64,000 bases of DNA from Rhizobium sp. ZPR4 (GTDB taxonomy: Bacteria; Pseudomonadota; Alphaproteobacteria; Rhizobiales; Rhizobiaceae), in contig NZ_CP157968.1 in assembly GCF_040215725.1 (NCBI RefSeq), positions 1,364,001 to 1,428,000 of the forward strand, in the 5' to 3' direction. Under the pieces are notes generated by a model that had not been told where the DNA came from, did not search any database, and saw only the letters and a list, made by a program, of their open reading frames with translations. A program made the position numbers and the translations under genes. This document shows, piece after piece, positions 12,609 to 17,683 of this stretch; position 1 is the stretch's first letter, and each line of letters starts with the position of its first letter.

Positions 12609-13502
12609 TCAGATCGCCGCAGCGATCCGGCCGATCTCGGCAATGATGGCATTGCGTTCATCGGTTGCGATTTCCGGTATCTCGCAATAGGCCGTCGCGA
12701 TGATGGGCGCGCGGTTCGATGGCCACAGCACCGCGATGTCATTGGCATTGCCGGCCTTGTCGCCGTTTGTTCCCGTCTTGTCGCCAACCAGCCAATCCTT
12801 CGCAAGGCCGGCGCGCAGGCGGGTGTCGCCCGTCTTGTTGGTGATCAGCCAAGCGGCCAGCTGCGATCGCGAGGCGGCTGTCAGCACATCAGTGAACAGG
12901 AGCCGCCGCAGGTTTTCCAGCATGGCCGAAGCCGTCGTCGTGTCGCGCTGGTCGTCCGGAGTGTCGTGATAGTTCAGCGTGGGTTCGGTGCGGTCGAGGC
13001 GGGTGATCTCGTCGCCCATGCTGCGGCAAAAGGTCGTGATTGCCTCCGGGCCGCCAAAGCTCGCAAGCAGTAGGTTGGCCGCGGTATTGTCGCTGAGCGT
13101 CACTGCCGCAGCGCAAAGTTCGCCGATGGTCATGCCATTTTCTCCGGCGTTGGGCGCGGTTGCCGGGGAATAGTCGATGAGCTCGCTTTTCGCGTAGCGA
13201 ATACGTCGATCGAGCTTCTCTTCTCCCTTGTCGACGCGGGCAAGCACGAGAGCTGCCGTCAGCATCTTGAAGGTGCTGCACATCAGGATGCGCTCGCTGG
13301 CGCGGTGCTCGATGCGCTTGCCACTTGCCATGTCGAGAATGCTGACGCAGATGCGGCCCGGATGCCTGCTTTCGAGTGCGGCAAGCTGCGCCTCCCCGGC
13401 ATTATCGTCTGCAGTGCGTCCAACTGCGCTGAGCCCTGCCAGAACAGGCAGCGCAAGCAAGCTGCCGGCAAGGCTTTGCCGGCGCGACAATAAGATCGTC
13501 AT
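12609..13502 (-). CDS. Class A serine beta-lactamase
   Basis: A 297-residue enzyme with the full class A set: C-S-T-F-K (Ser70/Lys73, preceded by Cys69), S-D-N (Ser130) in TLSDNTAAN, E-P-T-L-N (Glu166/Asn170) and K-T-G (234-236) in VGDKTGTNG. The N-terminus has an arginine pair before a hydrophobic stretch (SRRQSLAGSLL), which suggests Tat export, as reported for several soil-bacterium class A enzymes. Cys69 is shared with several carbapenemase/L2-type enzymes, but a partner Cys at 238 is not apparent (KTGTNG), so the disulphide of true carbapenemases is not supported. It is the promoter-proximal gene, divergent from the AmpR-like regulator. Confidence 0.92.
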   Translation of the reverse strand: MTILLSRRQSLAGSLLALPVLAGLSAVGRTADDNAGEAQLAALESRHPGRICVSILDMASGKRIEHRASERILMCSTFKMLTAALVLARVDKGEEKLDRRIRYAKSELIDYSPATAPNAGENGMTIGELCAAAVTLSDNTAANLLLASFGGPEAITTFCRSMGDEITRLDRTEPTLNYHDTPDDQRDTTTASAMLENLRRLLFTDVLTAASRSQLAAWLITNKTGDTRLRAGLAKDWLVGDKTGTNGDKAGNANDIAVLWPSNRAPIIATAYCEIPEIATDERNAIIAEIGRIAAAI

Positions 13503-13672
13503 CTTGTTTCCACTTCGATTTTACGTTGGGCAAAGGTGCGCCTTTTGGCCCCGTGGATGTCGTTGGGATCAGGCAAATCACCTTGCGAGGCAGACTATGG
13601 CTCCGCTTCCTACCCTAGACAAACGATCAATTCTGGGCTTAGACATGAGAAAAACTTGGCCTTAGGACATAA
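13503..13672. promoter_or_regulatory. Divergent promoter/operator region of beta-lactamase genes and AmpR-like regulator
   Basis: The 170-base gap between divergent starts is where AmpR proteins bind in known ampR-bla pairs. A TAGACA element occurs twice, at 13616-13621 and 13640-13645, 24 bases apart, near the regulator start. The second copy is followed by an A-rich stretch (GAGAAAAAC). These are candidate operator halves; the assignment rests on position and repeat only. Confidence 0.4.
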
Positions 13673-14551
13673 ATGGACATCTCACAGCTGCCGCTGAACG
13701 CGCTGCGCGTTTTCGAGGCCTCGGCGCGACATTGCAGTTTTACGCGGGCTGGCCTGGAGCTCCGGGTCACGCAGACGGCGATCAGCCATCAGGTCAAGGC
13801 GCTGGAAGACGTGTTGGGTGTGACCCTCTTCAAGCGCCTGCCGCGCGGTCTTGCGCTGACCGATGAAGGGCATGCGCTGCTGCCGGTGCTGACGGATGCC
13901 TTTCGACGCATGAGCGCCACGCTCAGCCAGCTGGAGGAGGGGAATTTCGCCGAGATCCTGACGATCGGTGTCGTCGGCACCTTCGCCATCGGCTGGCTAA
14001 TGCCGCGTCTCGCGAGCTTCAAGGCGCAGCATCCGCACGTCGATCTGCGCCTAAAGACTAATAACAATCGCGCCGACATGGTGCTCGACGGGCTGGATTT
14101 CTTCCTGCGCTTCGGCGATGGCGCCTGGCATGGAACGGAGGCGATCCATCTGATGGACGCGCCGCTCTCCCCGGTCTGCACGCCCGATATCGGCAAGCGA
14201 TTGCGTACGCCCGCCGATCTTGCCGATGTTGAGCTTTTGCGATCCTACCGGGTCGATGAATGGGCGCTCTGGTTCAGGGCTGCGGGCCTGCAGCCTCCCC
14301 ATCTTCGCGGCTGGATGTTCGATTCCTCGCTCACGCTGGTGGAGGCCGCAGCGCGCGGCGTCGGCGTCGCGCTCGTGCCGGTCGCGATGTTTTCCCATGA
14401 CATCGAGGCCGGTAGGATCATGCAGCCGTTCCAAATCACCGCGATGACGGGAAGCTACTGGCTGACACGGCTGAAATCGCGGGCCGAGACGGCGTCAATG
14501 AAAGTGTTCCGCCAGTGGCTGCTGGCGGAAATCGAGAATATGCCGGGGTAG
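13673..14551 (+). CDS. ampR: LysR-family regulator, AmpR-like (beta-lactamase inducer)
   Basis: 292 residues, the usual AmpR length. The N-terminal HTH (about 6-65) reads LPLNALRVFEASARHCSFTRAGLEL then VTQTAISHQVKALE, the AmpR/GcvA pattern. The effector domain begins with GVVGTFAIGWLMPRL, which matches the Gly-Thr-Phe-Ala-x-Gly-Trp segment that lines the muropeptide pocket in AmpR. In known systems AmpR is held off by UDP-MurNAc-pentapeptide and switched on by anhydro-muropeptides when beta-lactams disturb the wall. Its position facing two beta-lactamase genes supports the same job here. Confidence 0.85.
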   Translation: MDISQLPLNALRVFEASARHCSFTRAGLELRVTQTAISHQVKALEDVLGVTLFKRLPRGLALTDEGHALLPVLTDAFRRMSATLSQLEEGNFAEILTIGVVGTFAIGWLMPRLASFKAQHPHVDLRLKTNNNRADMVLDGLDFFLRFGDGAWHGTEAIHLMDAPLSPVCTPDIGKRLRTPADLADVELLRSYRVDEWALWFRAAGLQPPHLRGWMFDSSLTLVEAAARGVGVALVPVAMFSHDIEAGRIMQPFQITAMTGSYWLTRLKSRAETASMKVFRQWLLAEIENMPG

Positions 14552-14640: not shown

Positions 14641-16143
14641 TCAGCTCGCGAGCTTTAACCTCACGGCCCCAGTCCGCGTTCCCGAACGCACCGTCTTGAA
14701 CCGGCCGACCAGGCCGGCGAGCTCGTTGCTGATATCGGCGAGGTGCCGTGTCGAGGCATTCGTCTCTTCCATCAGCGCCACGTTCTGCTGGGTCATCTGA
14801 TCCATGTTGCGCACTGCGGAGTTGATCTCGCTGATGCCAACGGCCTGTTCCTGCGTCGAGCGCGCGATGGCGCCGACATTCCGGTCGATGGAGGCGACCT
14901 GATTACCGATCAGGGCGAGTGCCTCGCCGGTTCTGTTGACCAGCTCAACGCCGCGACGAACGTCGTTGGATGACCTGTCGATCAGATCCTTGATTTCCTT
15001 TGCCGCCGTTGCCGAGCGCTGCGCCAGCTCGCGGACTTCCTGGGCGACGACGGCAAAGCCCTTGCCCTGTTCGCCGGCTCTTGCCGCCTCGACACCGGCG
15101 TTCAGCGCCAGAAGGTTGGTCTGGAACGCGATGTCGTCGATGACGGAGATGATATCGGTCATCTTGCGAGACGAGGTTTCGATATCGCCCATGGCGGACA
15201 CGGCCTGCTGAACGACTTCGCGGGAGTGCTCTGCTTCCGAGGCGGATTCCTTGACGATCGCCTGCACTTCGCGTGTCCGCTCGGCCGTCTGTTCGGAAAT
15301 GGTGGTGATCTGGTCGATCGCAGCTGCACTTTCCTCGAGCGCGGATGCCTGCTGCTCCGTGCGCCGCGCCATGTTGTCGGCGGCAGACGAGATCGAGCCG
15401 GCTTCGTCGCGAACGCGCGTCACCGAATCCTCGATGCGTTGCATTGCTGTGCCGAGGGATGCGAGCGATTCGTTGTAATTGCTCTTCAGAACTTCGAACT
15501 CGGTGGAAAGGGCTTCCGTGATGTCAGCCGTCAGGTCGCCGTTCGCAAGGCCGTTCAGCGCGATGCCGAGCGCATTGAGCGCGCGCTCCTGCTCGTGCTG
15601 TGCGGCGGCCCGCTCGGCCTCGGCGCGGTCGCGCTCATCGGCGAGCACCTGCAGATAGACGGAAATGCCGTAATCCATATCCACGAGTGCGGCCTTGACG
15701 ATCGCCGACAGCCGACGCGACAGGGCCTGCTCGTGCTTGCGCTGCATGAAGCCCGACAGCTGCTGCGCGACGATCGAGCGTACCATGCCTTCGAGGATCA
15801 GCGCATAACCACCGATGTACCAGCGCGGTTCCAGCCCCAGGCGCGCATGGGTTCTGCCGACGGCCGAGACCGCCTCGACATAGTCGGGTCCGTATTTGCC
15901 TGATGCGATCGTCTTCCAATGATCCTGCTGCTTGGATTTGGCATGCGCCACATGCTGCTGCGACGAGAAGAACTTCGACATTTCCGGATGTTTGACGATC
16001 CTCTGGTAGAAAACATCGAGGGAGCCTTTGACGGCAGATTCGATGGTTGGCTGCAGTTCCGAGAGAGCCTGTCGGGCATCCTGCCCCAGTCCAACAAAGT
16101 CGAGCCGATCATTCAACTCGTCCATTTTCGATGCGCGTACCAT
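14641..16143 (-). CDS. Globin-coupled methyl-accepting chemotaxis protein (HemAT-type aerotaxis sensor)
   Basis: A 500-residue soluble chemoreceptor with no membrane helices. Residues about 10-175 form a protoglobin-type heme sensor; the proximal His is probably that of [14 protein letters not shown] (near residue 95), typical of globin-coupled sensors. A short HAMP-like linker (about 195-245, [10 protein letters not shown]) leads to an MCP signalling domain (about 250-490) with the hairpin tip [20 protein letters not shown], where CheA/CheW dock. GGAG lies 8 bases before ATG 16143. It would sense oxygen and feed a chemotaxis phosphorelay. No other chemotaxis gene is in the window. Confidence 0.9.
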
Positions 16144-16350
16144 AACCTGCTCCGATGAAGAAATTACAAGCAGTTAGGGCATGGGCATGGTTAAAAATTT
16201 ATTAGAATATCAGCCTATTTTCGCGGCATGATTGTCGCGGCCCCACATGGCCGGGTTGCAGCCGCTGGCGCGTTGCAATGTCATTGCTCGCCTTGCCGGC
16301 ATCTGCTAAAGGCTGGTGATCATTACGTATCTCGCCATGGGGCAATTGGC

Positions 16351-16380
16351 ATGGGGAACTCCAAGTCAGCAGATAGATAA
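16351..16380 (+). CDS. Nine-residue leader peptide of CmlA-type attenuator
   Basis: A short frame ATG-TAA encodes M-G-N-S-K-S-A-D-R. It ends directly before a hairpin and lies 100 bases ahead of a CmlA/FloR-type exporter. The chloramphenicol-inducible cmlA gene of Tn1696 is known to be controlled by a nine-codon leader recalled as M-S-T-S-K-N-A-D-K. The length, the S-K-x-A-D core and the basic last residue match. In that system the nascent peptide and chloramphenicol stall the ribosome near the leader's end. GGGG at 16339-16342 could be its ribosome site. Confidence 0.75.
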   Translation: MGNSKSADR

Positions 16381-16471
16381 GCCGCAACAGCTTTTTGTTG
16401 TTGCGGCGTGCTGTCGAATTCATTGCAATTGAAGCCAGTGGCAGACGCCGCCCGAACTCTCTTTCGAGCGG
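16381..16471 (+). promoter_or_regulatory. Predicted chloramphenicol-responsive translational attenuator
   Basis: Three pairings can be drawn. Hairpin 1: GCCGCAACA (16381-16389, just after the leader stop) with TGTTGCGGC (16399-16407). Hairpin 2: CCGCCCGAA (16448-16456) with TTCGAGCGG (16463-16471), one C-A mismatch, which hides GAGCGG (16466-16471), the only ribosome-site-like sequence before ATG 16481. Alternative: GCGGCGT (16403-16409) with ACGCCGC (16445-16451), using one arm of each. A ribosome stalled on the leader covers 16381-16389, frees 16403-16409, and would open hairpin 2. The RNA logic is inferred from pairing only. Confidence 0.65.
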
Positions 16472-16480
16472 ATTTTTCTC

Positions 16481-17683
16481 ATGTCTGATATACGCCCATC
16501 CTGGGCCTACTCGCTGCCGGCGGCACTGCTGCTGATGGCGCCTTTTGACATCCTCGCCTCGCTGGCCATGGATATCTACCTTCCCGTCGTCCCGTCGATG
16601 CCGGGCATATTGAACACGACGCCGCCGATAGTTCAGCTGACGTTGAGCCTCTATATGGTCATGCTGGGTCTCGGCCAGGTCGCGTTCGGCCCGCTTTCGG
16701 ATCGCATCGGGCGTCGTCCCGTCCTGCTGTCGGGTGCGCTTCTGTTCGCCGCCGCATCCCTTGGAGCGGCGCTTTCATCGGATGCGACCGCCTTCGTACT
16801 TTGCCGATTGCTGCAAGCGACCGGCGCCTCAGCGGCTTTGGTCGCGACCTTTGCGACCGTCCGGGATGTCTATGGCAATCGCCCGGAGCAGGCAATCATC
16901 TATGCCGCCTTCGGCTCGATCCTCTCCTTCGTACCGGCGCTTGGGCCGATCGCCGGGGCGATGATTGCCGATCATTTCGGGTGGCGAGCGATCTTCATGC
17001 TGTTGGCGCTCCTTGCCCTGGTCGCAACGGTCAACGCCATGGCATGCTGGCACGAAACGCGACCGGCAGCTTCGGCCGGGCTGCGTCGCTCCATCTGGCC
17101 AATCTTCGCAAGCTTTCCATTCTGGACCTACACGCTGGCCTTCAGTGCGTGCATGGGCACGTTCTTCGTGTTCTTCTCGACCGCGCCACGCGTGTTGATC
17201 GGCCGGGCCGGCTATTCGGAATTTGGCTTCAGCATGGCATTCGCAACGGTCGCCGTTGTGATGATCGCGACGGCGCGCTTTGCCGGCGTGTTCGTCGGGA
17301 GGTGGGGTATCCCCGGCTGCGTTGGGCGGGGTATGGCATTGCTTCTTGCCGGTGCAGCCATGCTTGCGATCGGCCAGATTTATGGATCGCCGTCTTTTGG
17401 GAACTTCGTGCTGCCGATGTGGATCATGGCTGTCGGCATTGTCTTTGCGGCATCGGTGACGGCGAACGGGGCGCTCGCGGAATTTGGCGATATCGCCGGA
17501 TCGGCCGTGGCCTTCTACTTCTGCATCCAGAGCCTGATCGTAAGCCTCGTCGGGACGCTGGCTGTAACGGCGCTGGATGGTGACAGTGCATGGCCTCTGG
17601 TGGCGTTCTCGACCCTGATGCCATTGCTGGTACTGGCAGCGCTTCATGTCTTGATGCGACTGCCTGAGAAGGCATCCATCTGA
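16481..17683 (+). CDS. cmlA: CmlA/FloR-type MFS chloramphenicol/florfenicol exporter
   Basis: A 400-residue 12-helix drug:proton antiporter. It resembles CmlA along its whole length: an N-terminus MS-x4-SW-x-YSL, MAPFDILASLAMDIYLP, QLTLSLYMVMLGLGQVAFGPLSDRIGRRPV with the MFS loop 2-3 motif, LLQATGASAALVATFATVRDVY in helix 4-5, and MGTFFVFFSTAP. This similarity fixes the ATG at 16481 even though its ribosome site (GAGCGG) is weak. It would pump phenicol drugs from the cytoplasm. It follows a leader peptide and hairpins that suggest inducible translation. Confidence 0.88.
   Translation: MSDIRPSWAYSLPAALLLMAPFDILASLAMDIYLPVVPSMPGILNTTPPIVQLTLSLYMVMLGLGQVAFGPLSDRIGRRPVLLSGALLFAAASLGAALSSDATAFVLCRLLQATGASAALVATFATVRDVYGNRPEQAIIYAAFGSILSFVPALGPIAGAMIADHFGWRAIFMLLALLALVATVNAMACWHETRPAASAGLRRSIWPIFASFPFWTYTLAFSACMGTFFVFFSTAPRVLIGRAGYSEFGFSMAFATVAVVMIATARFAGVFVGRWGIPGCVGRGMALLLAGAAMLAIGQIYGSPSFGNFVLPMWIMAVGIVFAASVTANGALAEFGDIAGSAVAFYFCIQSLIVSLVGTLAVTALDGDSAWPLVAFSTLMPLLVLAALHVLMRLPEKASI

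Follow-up and report, generated by a model that had tools for sequence, protein, structure and literature searches.

Upstream of a phenicol exporter gene, the genome of Rhizobium sp. ZPR4 carries a leader-hairpin element that very probably acts as a translational attenuator sensing phenicols; in this reading, we infer that the ribosome stalls, where it does so, which drug is sensed, and that the exporter is induced. The element lies at 16351-16480 in a 64,000-nucleotide stretch of this genome, herein referred to as the window; all coordinates are positions in the window. The surrounding contig has 1.82 Mb and the whole genome 7.74 Mb. It belongs to the known CmlA-type translational attenuators, here on a chromosome, and as an attenuator it is well supported through its anatomy and its evolution.

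The element consists of a leader of nine codons, two hairpins, and an alternative helix (Table 1). The leader, MGNSKSADR, reads ATG GGG AAC TCC AAG TCA GCA GAT AGA TAA, and its stop codon adjoins the base of hairpin 1 (HP1), as described in an earlier note made from the DNA letters of the window. The same note had given HP1 a stem of 9 base pairs (bp); the hairpin stands, and the stem has 11 bp. Hairpin 2 (HP2) was also found where it had been placed, covering the presumed ribosome site of the exporter, but it is not fully paired, having 8 of 9 pairs and a single C.A mismatch. The proposed pairing of GCGGCGT (16403-16409) with ACGCCGC (16445-16451) can indeed form and continues, after a bulged G, through 16411-16415/16440-16444, giving a helix of 12 bp, herein referred to as the switch helix. 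This helix would be formed by the 3' arm of HP1 and the 5' arm of HP2; by computation it is exclusive with both hairpins, and it is weak in some elements. Where the leader in the window has GGGG as its putative ribosome site, several relatives have GGAG (alignment A1).

The fold of the region is better than that of shuffled sequences (z -2.79; 2 of 200 shuffles equally good). In 23 aligned upstream regions from rhizobia and their relatives, the leader, HP1, the arms of the switch helix, and HP2 stand out against diverged flanks, and this conservation is a stronger support than the fold of a single sequence. The alignment of upstream regions, suggested in the earlier note as a check, bore out its proposal in large part: the leader frame and the pairing arms are conserved, and compensatory changes are present. 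A search of 16000-17000 against Rfam (E up to 1) gave no matches, and a promoter scan at the locus found nothing. The element goes unseen because ordinary annotation passes over so short a leader and Rfam holds no match.

Table 1. Features of the attenuator element and of the exporter gene in the window.
Feature	Position	Strand	Basis
Putative ribosome site of the leader, GGGG	16339-16342	+	sequence and alignment A1 (function putative)
Leader open reading frame MGNSKSADR with TAA stop	16351-16380	+	sequence; conserved leader and HP1; codon pattern
Ala codon at -1 relative to the presumed peptidyl (P) site	16369-16371	+	
Asp codon, presumed P-site codon under stalling	16372-16374	+	Ala, Ser, or Thr at -1 and the context rule
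HP1, 11-bp hairpin	16381-16391/16397-16407	+	fold, covariation, arm permutation
Switch helix, 5' arm	16403-16415 (16403-16409 and 16411-16415)	+	pairing, conservation, permutation
Switch helix, 3' arm	16440-16451	+	pairing, conservation, permutation
HP2 over the ribosome site	16448-16456/16463-16471	+	fold, covariation, permutation
Presumed exporter ribosome site, GAGCGGA	16466-16472	+	position and conservation (function presumed)
CmlA/FloR-family phenicol exporter, 400 amino acids	16481-17683	+	NF033134 cmlA_floR; Pfam MFS_1

Chloramphenicol stalls ribosomes most strongly with Ala at the -1 position, followed by Ser or Thr (PMC8987054). In total, 66 distinct leaders were found among 145 elements, and HP1 is in frame with the leader in 144 elements and in 65 distinct leaders. 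The P-site codon was defined as the one that begins nine bases before HP1, a choice fitted to the window element. The -1 residue in the 65 in-phase distinct leaders is Ala (43), Ser (17), or Thr (5) and nothing else, as the context preference of chloramphenicol predicts. At the remaining leader positions, these three residues account for 141 of 318 (44%), related leaders being non-independent. The P-site residue is Asp (52 leaders), Thr (9), Val (2), Arg, or Ser, and the residue of the aminoacyl (A) site is Arg (36), Lys (21), Asn (2), a stop (2), Thr, Ile, Gln, or Glu. On the exporter tree (84 rows), the -1 residue underwent at least 10 changes, all among Ala, Ser, and Thr; at least 6 changes were counted for the P site and at least 19 for the A site. 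The distance between the motif and HP1 is unchanged in leaders without the stop codon (L049, L138, L140, and L141) or with the stop one codon earlier (L204 and L210), and is one base shorter in L139. In Rhizobium rhizogenes OV677 (L049:2864-2893), TAT replaces the usual leader stop before HP1. These 66 natural leaders form a test set for the context rule.

All three helices show compensatory changes. In 58 aligned elements, 100% of the cells are paired for HP1, 98.3% for the lower stem of HP2, and 91.5% for the switch helix, as against 23.8-66.4% and 30.3-54.8% in controls with slid partners. Arms were also swapped between elements (60 elements, 5000 permutations; L126, L138, L139, and L140 omitted), giving z -5.0 for HP1 and z -7.7 for HP2, with no permutation as good in either case, and z -2.9 for the switch helix, with 16 as good. 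For this test the 3' arm of the switch helix was re-anchored, by which 17 of the 60 anchors were moved, 15 of them by three bases, in agreement with alignment A1; the new placement seems incorrect in L029 and L093, and in cmlA1 (L142) the anchor misses the HP2 arm. The results are nearly the same under both anchorings. Pairing of the downstream leader with the 3' arm of HP1 has a mean energy of -19.4 kcal/mol vs. -12.1 kcal/mol in shuffles (64 elements, median z -3.3); none of 200 shuffles was as good in 30 of these elements, and two at most in 51. In the floR copies L062 and L068, a six-base insertion of the kind noted in PMC5890775 sits in the loop of HP2.

Homologs of the exporter were collected through protein or DNA similarity of the gene together with its upstream region. 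The sources were 80 loci kept of 191 genome-contig loci, 47 exporter-positive genomes among 297 genomes of Rhizobiaceae, and chosen plasmid records, and the resulting 140 parsed loci include at least five duplicates that entered from two collections. The leader and HP1 were found upstream of the exporter in 135 loci. The other five (L067, L070, and L084-L086) are floR copies of Bacteroidota, which have different upstream DNA with no leader or hairpins. In the Rhizobiaceae sample, the element was present at all 47 exporter loci.

A covariance model of the element, R1, was built from 48 elements, many of them shared with the test set. It detects 43 of the 47 exporter-positive Rhizobiaceae genomes, an agreement that is partly circular because many training elements are identical to tested ones; the four genomes missed have the most divergent elements (L138-L141), recognized by eye. 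More telling is the silence of R1 in Rhizobiaceae genomes without an exporter hit, of which it matches only 2 of 250 (G270 and G026). In G270 (L193), an attenuator with the leader MGTTESATR precedes an exporter that matches in two pieces and is seemingly broken. The G026 match was rejected, since it contains no leader-like frame and looks like a chance hairpin. The genome of Rhizobium sp. ZPR4 has a single R1 match.

In the phylum sample, R1 matches were found in 15 of 398 genomes. Six of these genomes belong to the family of the window, three have exporters of 72-73% identity (L178-L180), three belong to family f196 (L184-L186), and one to family f199 (L187); the remaining two matches, L188 and L189, have no exporter in the surrounding DNA examined. 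The matches in G896 and G833, with no exporter in the surrounding DNA examined, look like chance hairpins and were not accepted as elements. In the class sample (385 genomes), only the genome of Rhizobium sp. ZPR4 itself was found. Family f196 has the exporter in 6 of 119 genomes, and the element in all six. In family f199, R1 matches 6 of 79 genomes, each with an exporter of the CmlA/FloR family downstream, at identities down to 45%. The element thus precedes related exporters down to about 45% identity in other Pseudomonadota, and it also precedes the clinical cmlA and floR genes. A second R1 match in G108 (L191:1276-1630) was considered as a new kind of controlled gene and rejected, as it precedes a short remnant of the exporter; besides this remnant, G108 has a full exporter copy elsewhere.

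According to the proposed mechanism, when the drug is absent, the leader would be translated and released, both HP1 and HP2 would form, and HP2 would hide the exporter ribosome site. A chloramphenicol-bound ribosome would stall once the Asp codon, position 8 of the leader, occupies the P site and Ala is at -1. The footprint of a ribosome is taken as 15 bases beyond the first P-site base, and here it would cover the first seven bases of HP1. The freed 3' arm of HP1 could then form the switch helix by pairing with the 5' arm of HP2, which would loosen HP2 and allow translation of the exporter.

In computed folds of 60 elements without masking, the mean pairing was 0.98 for HP1, 0.09 for the switch helix, and 0.85 for the lower stem of HP2; with the footprint masked and Asp in the P site, the values were 0.15, 0.67, and 0.33, respectively. 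Masking only up to the base of HP1 changed little (1.00, 0.17, and 0.92). With earlier anchors (L090, L126, L139, and L140 omitted, the anchor being missing), the switch helix rose by more than 0.2 in 49 of 60 elements, and the lower stem of HP2 fell by more than 0.2 in 44.

A number of results weigh against this mechanism. The switch helix fails to rise by 0.2 in 11 of 60 elements, and in 6 of 64 (L113 and L136-L140) its arm is equaled by more than 5 of 200 shuffles. For both-sided changes in the switch helix, a slide of -2 ties the number of pairs (5) and exceeds the number of cells (14 vs. 12), and the pair count is reached by 18 of 500 shuffles. The arm permutation keeps relatedness among elements, and RNAalifold, unaided, predicts HP1 only. 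Openness of the ribosome site in a 12-base window moves from 0.29 to 0.31, rising by more than 0.1 in 11 of 64 elements and falling by more than 0.1 in three, and shuffles of ten elements change it equally; for the five-base core of the site, no more than 12 of 60 elements gain over 0.2 in openness. When the footprint is masked, the window element retains the upper four pairs of HP2, and the ribosome site remains paired in the cmlA1 record. Because the ribosome site itself hardly opens in the computed folds, we infer the step from a loosened HP2 to translation. Finally, floR-T2 mRNA is strongly up and floR-T1 mRNA slightly (PMC8256890), which a purely translational switch leaves unexplained.

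The rise in induced floR mRNA in that report would suit transcription attenuation, in which HP2 and a run of T residues form a terminator and stalling permits an antiterminator, and the window has ATTTTTC directly 3' of HP2. However, no terminator-like site was found in 16144-16500, relatives do not keep the T run, and HP2 sits over the ribosome site, all of which makes a terminator very improbable. Still harder to credit is that the hairpins act alone, in RNA stability or as a binding site, with a leader that is not translated for sensing. It is true that no part is more conserved than HP1 and that RNAalifold predicts no other helix, but the phase of HP1 with the leader is kept in all but one element, and the leader codons vary synonymously: of the 54 distinct leaders with nine codons, 48 use GAT or GAC as codon 8, and 43 use one of the four TCN codons as codon 6.

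A further alternative keeps the same device and changes its natural signal, from chloramphenicol to another drug of the peptidyl transferase center. The context rule also holds for linezolid (PMC8987054); on the other hand, the controlled genes are phenicol exporters by family, and responses to phenicols are reported for both cmlA and floR (PMC8876359, PMC5890775, and PMC8256890). Another drug is an unlikely, though not a far-fetched, natural signal. A translational attenuator that senses phenicols is the preferred reading.

The suggestion of the earlier note that the attenuator is ancient is supported by the exporter tree and by conserved neighbors. The neighbors of the window locus were sought in 71 distinct loci; in 18 of these (L001-L004, L016-L028, and L030), a LysR regulator and a luciferase-like monooxygenase are kept at 91-100% identity, and 16 of these 18 rhizobial loci also keep a chemotaxis gene (the available flank lengths differ). 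Since the neighbors are conserved in 18 loci, the exporter locus is resident in this rhizobial group. The leader was not used in building the exporter tree, which has 89 rows, was made by a quick method, and includes several long branches flagged by the tool. The element was found on both sides of its earliest splits; the clinical floR copies (L145 and L146) are placed among mostly alphaproteobacterial ones, and cmlA1 groups with copies of families f199 and f196. Judging from these sequences, the sampled CmlA/FloR exporters most likely had the device from their common ancestor, and the clinical cmlA and floR genes would have inherited it; transfer of the element between lineages is possible. 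That resident genes of soil bacteria have a probable phenicol-responsive switch speaks for a natural signal and not for clinical selection.

Taken as a whole, the following reading is reasonably probable. The attenuator would be ancestral to the entire CmlA/FloR family, long before medical phenicols, and the leader would be a natural record of the context rule: selection would fix an Ala, Ser, or Thr codon at the distance from which a stalled ribosome reaches just far enough to open HP1, and the stop, the length, and the A-site residue would drift. The clinical floR and cmlA genes would have inherited a working sensor, and the floR hairpin would be one arm of a three-helix switch.

Control of the exporter by the element is suggested by its position. 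The exporter scores 623 bits with NF033134 cmlA_floR (cut-off 450). FloR itself was ruled out, as the exception model NF000219 gives 623 bits, below its cut-off of 700; the protein is a relative of FloR, with 72-73% identity to FloR vs. about 50% to CmlA. This corrects the CmlA-type label of the earlier note as far as the exporter is concerned. The closest named locus is that of Rhizobium rhizogenes 17-2069-2c, with an exporter identity of 98.75%. At 12609-14551, next to the exporter locus, a class A β-lactamase gene (minus strand) is divergent from a PenR-related LysR gene. This β-lactamase reaches 442 bits with the BKC/GPC and PAD models, where 575 is required, and it exceeds the general class A cut-off.

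The element can be compared with three known systems. Translational attenuators of cat and erm genes share with it the freeing of a hidden ribosome site by leader stalling (PMC5418344), but have other leaders and control other genes. The cmlA1 attenuator of the Tn1696 integron has been known since 1991 (Stokes and Hall, via the review PMC8876359). The leader MSTSKNADK, correctly given in the earlier note, precedes cmlA1, cmlA5, and cmlA4 (L142, L143, and L147), and cmlA8 has MNTSKNADK. In Comamonas testosteroni (L034:2866-2895), a floR-type exporter follows a leader of the cmlA type, MSTSKNADK, which looks like an exchange of the upstream part. The cmlA1 system resembles the window element in its nine-residue leader, its stem-loops, an alternative pairing that would expose the ribosome site, and its CmlA/FloR-family exporter (PMC8876359), and the switch helix is also possible in its record (GCGGCGUUCUC/GGGAGCGCCGC). 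In contrast, cmlA1 lies in a mobile cassette and the window locus among conserved neighbors, the leader ends in NADK instead of SADR, and the HP2 of cmlA1 misfits the model from the other elements, with many non-standard pairs and a different fold.

The floR gene also shares a nine-residue leader (MGNSKSADK in L146) and HP1, and it is reported to be inducible (PMC5890775, citing Lang et al., and PMC8256890); this leader and hairpin were already published, which corrects the earlier note. As described in the available parts of these papers, floR has a nine-residue frame and one perfect inverted repeat, which lies clear of the ribosome site (PMC5890775) and whose role in induction is called unclear (PMC8256890), without HP2 or a switch helix; a 2024 paper states that no information on floR regulation was available (PMC10866021). 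A literature search, largely without subscription papers, recognized no description of the rhizobial element, of HP2, or of the switch helix. The two last-named parts provide a testable model for how a floR hairpin lying off the ribosome site could act, and the main value of the comparison is in this testable answer to the floR question and in rules that hold family-wide.
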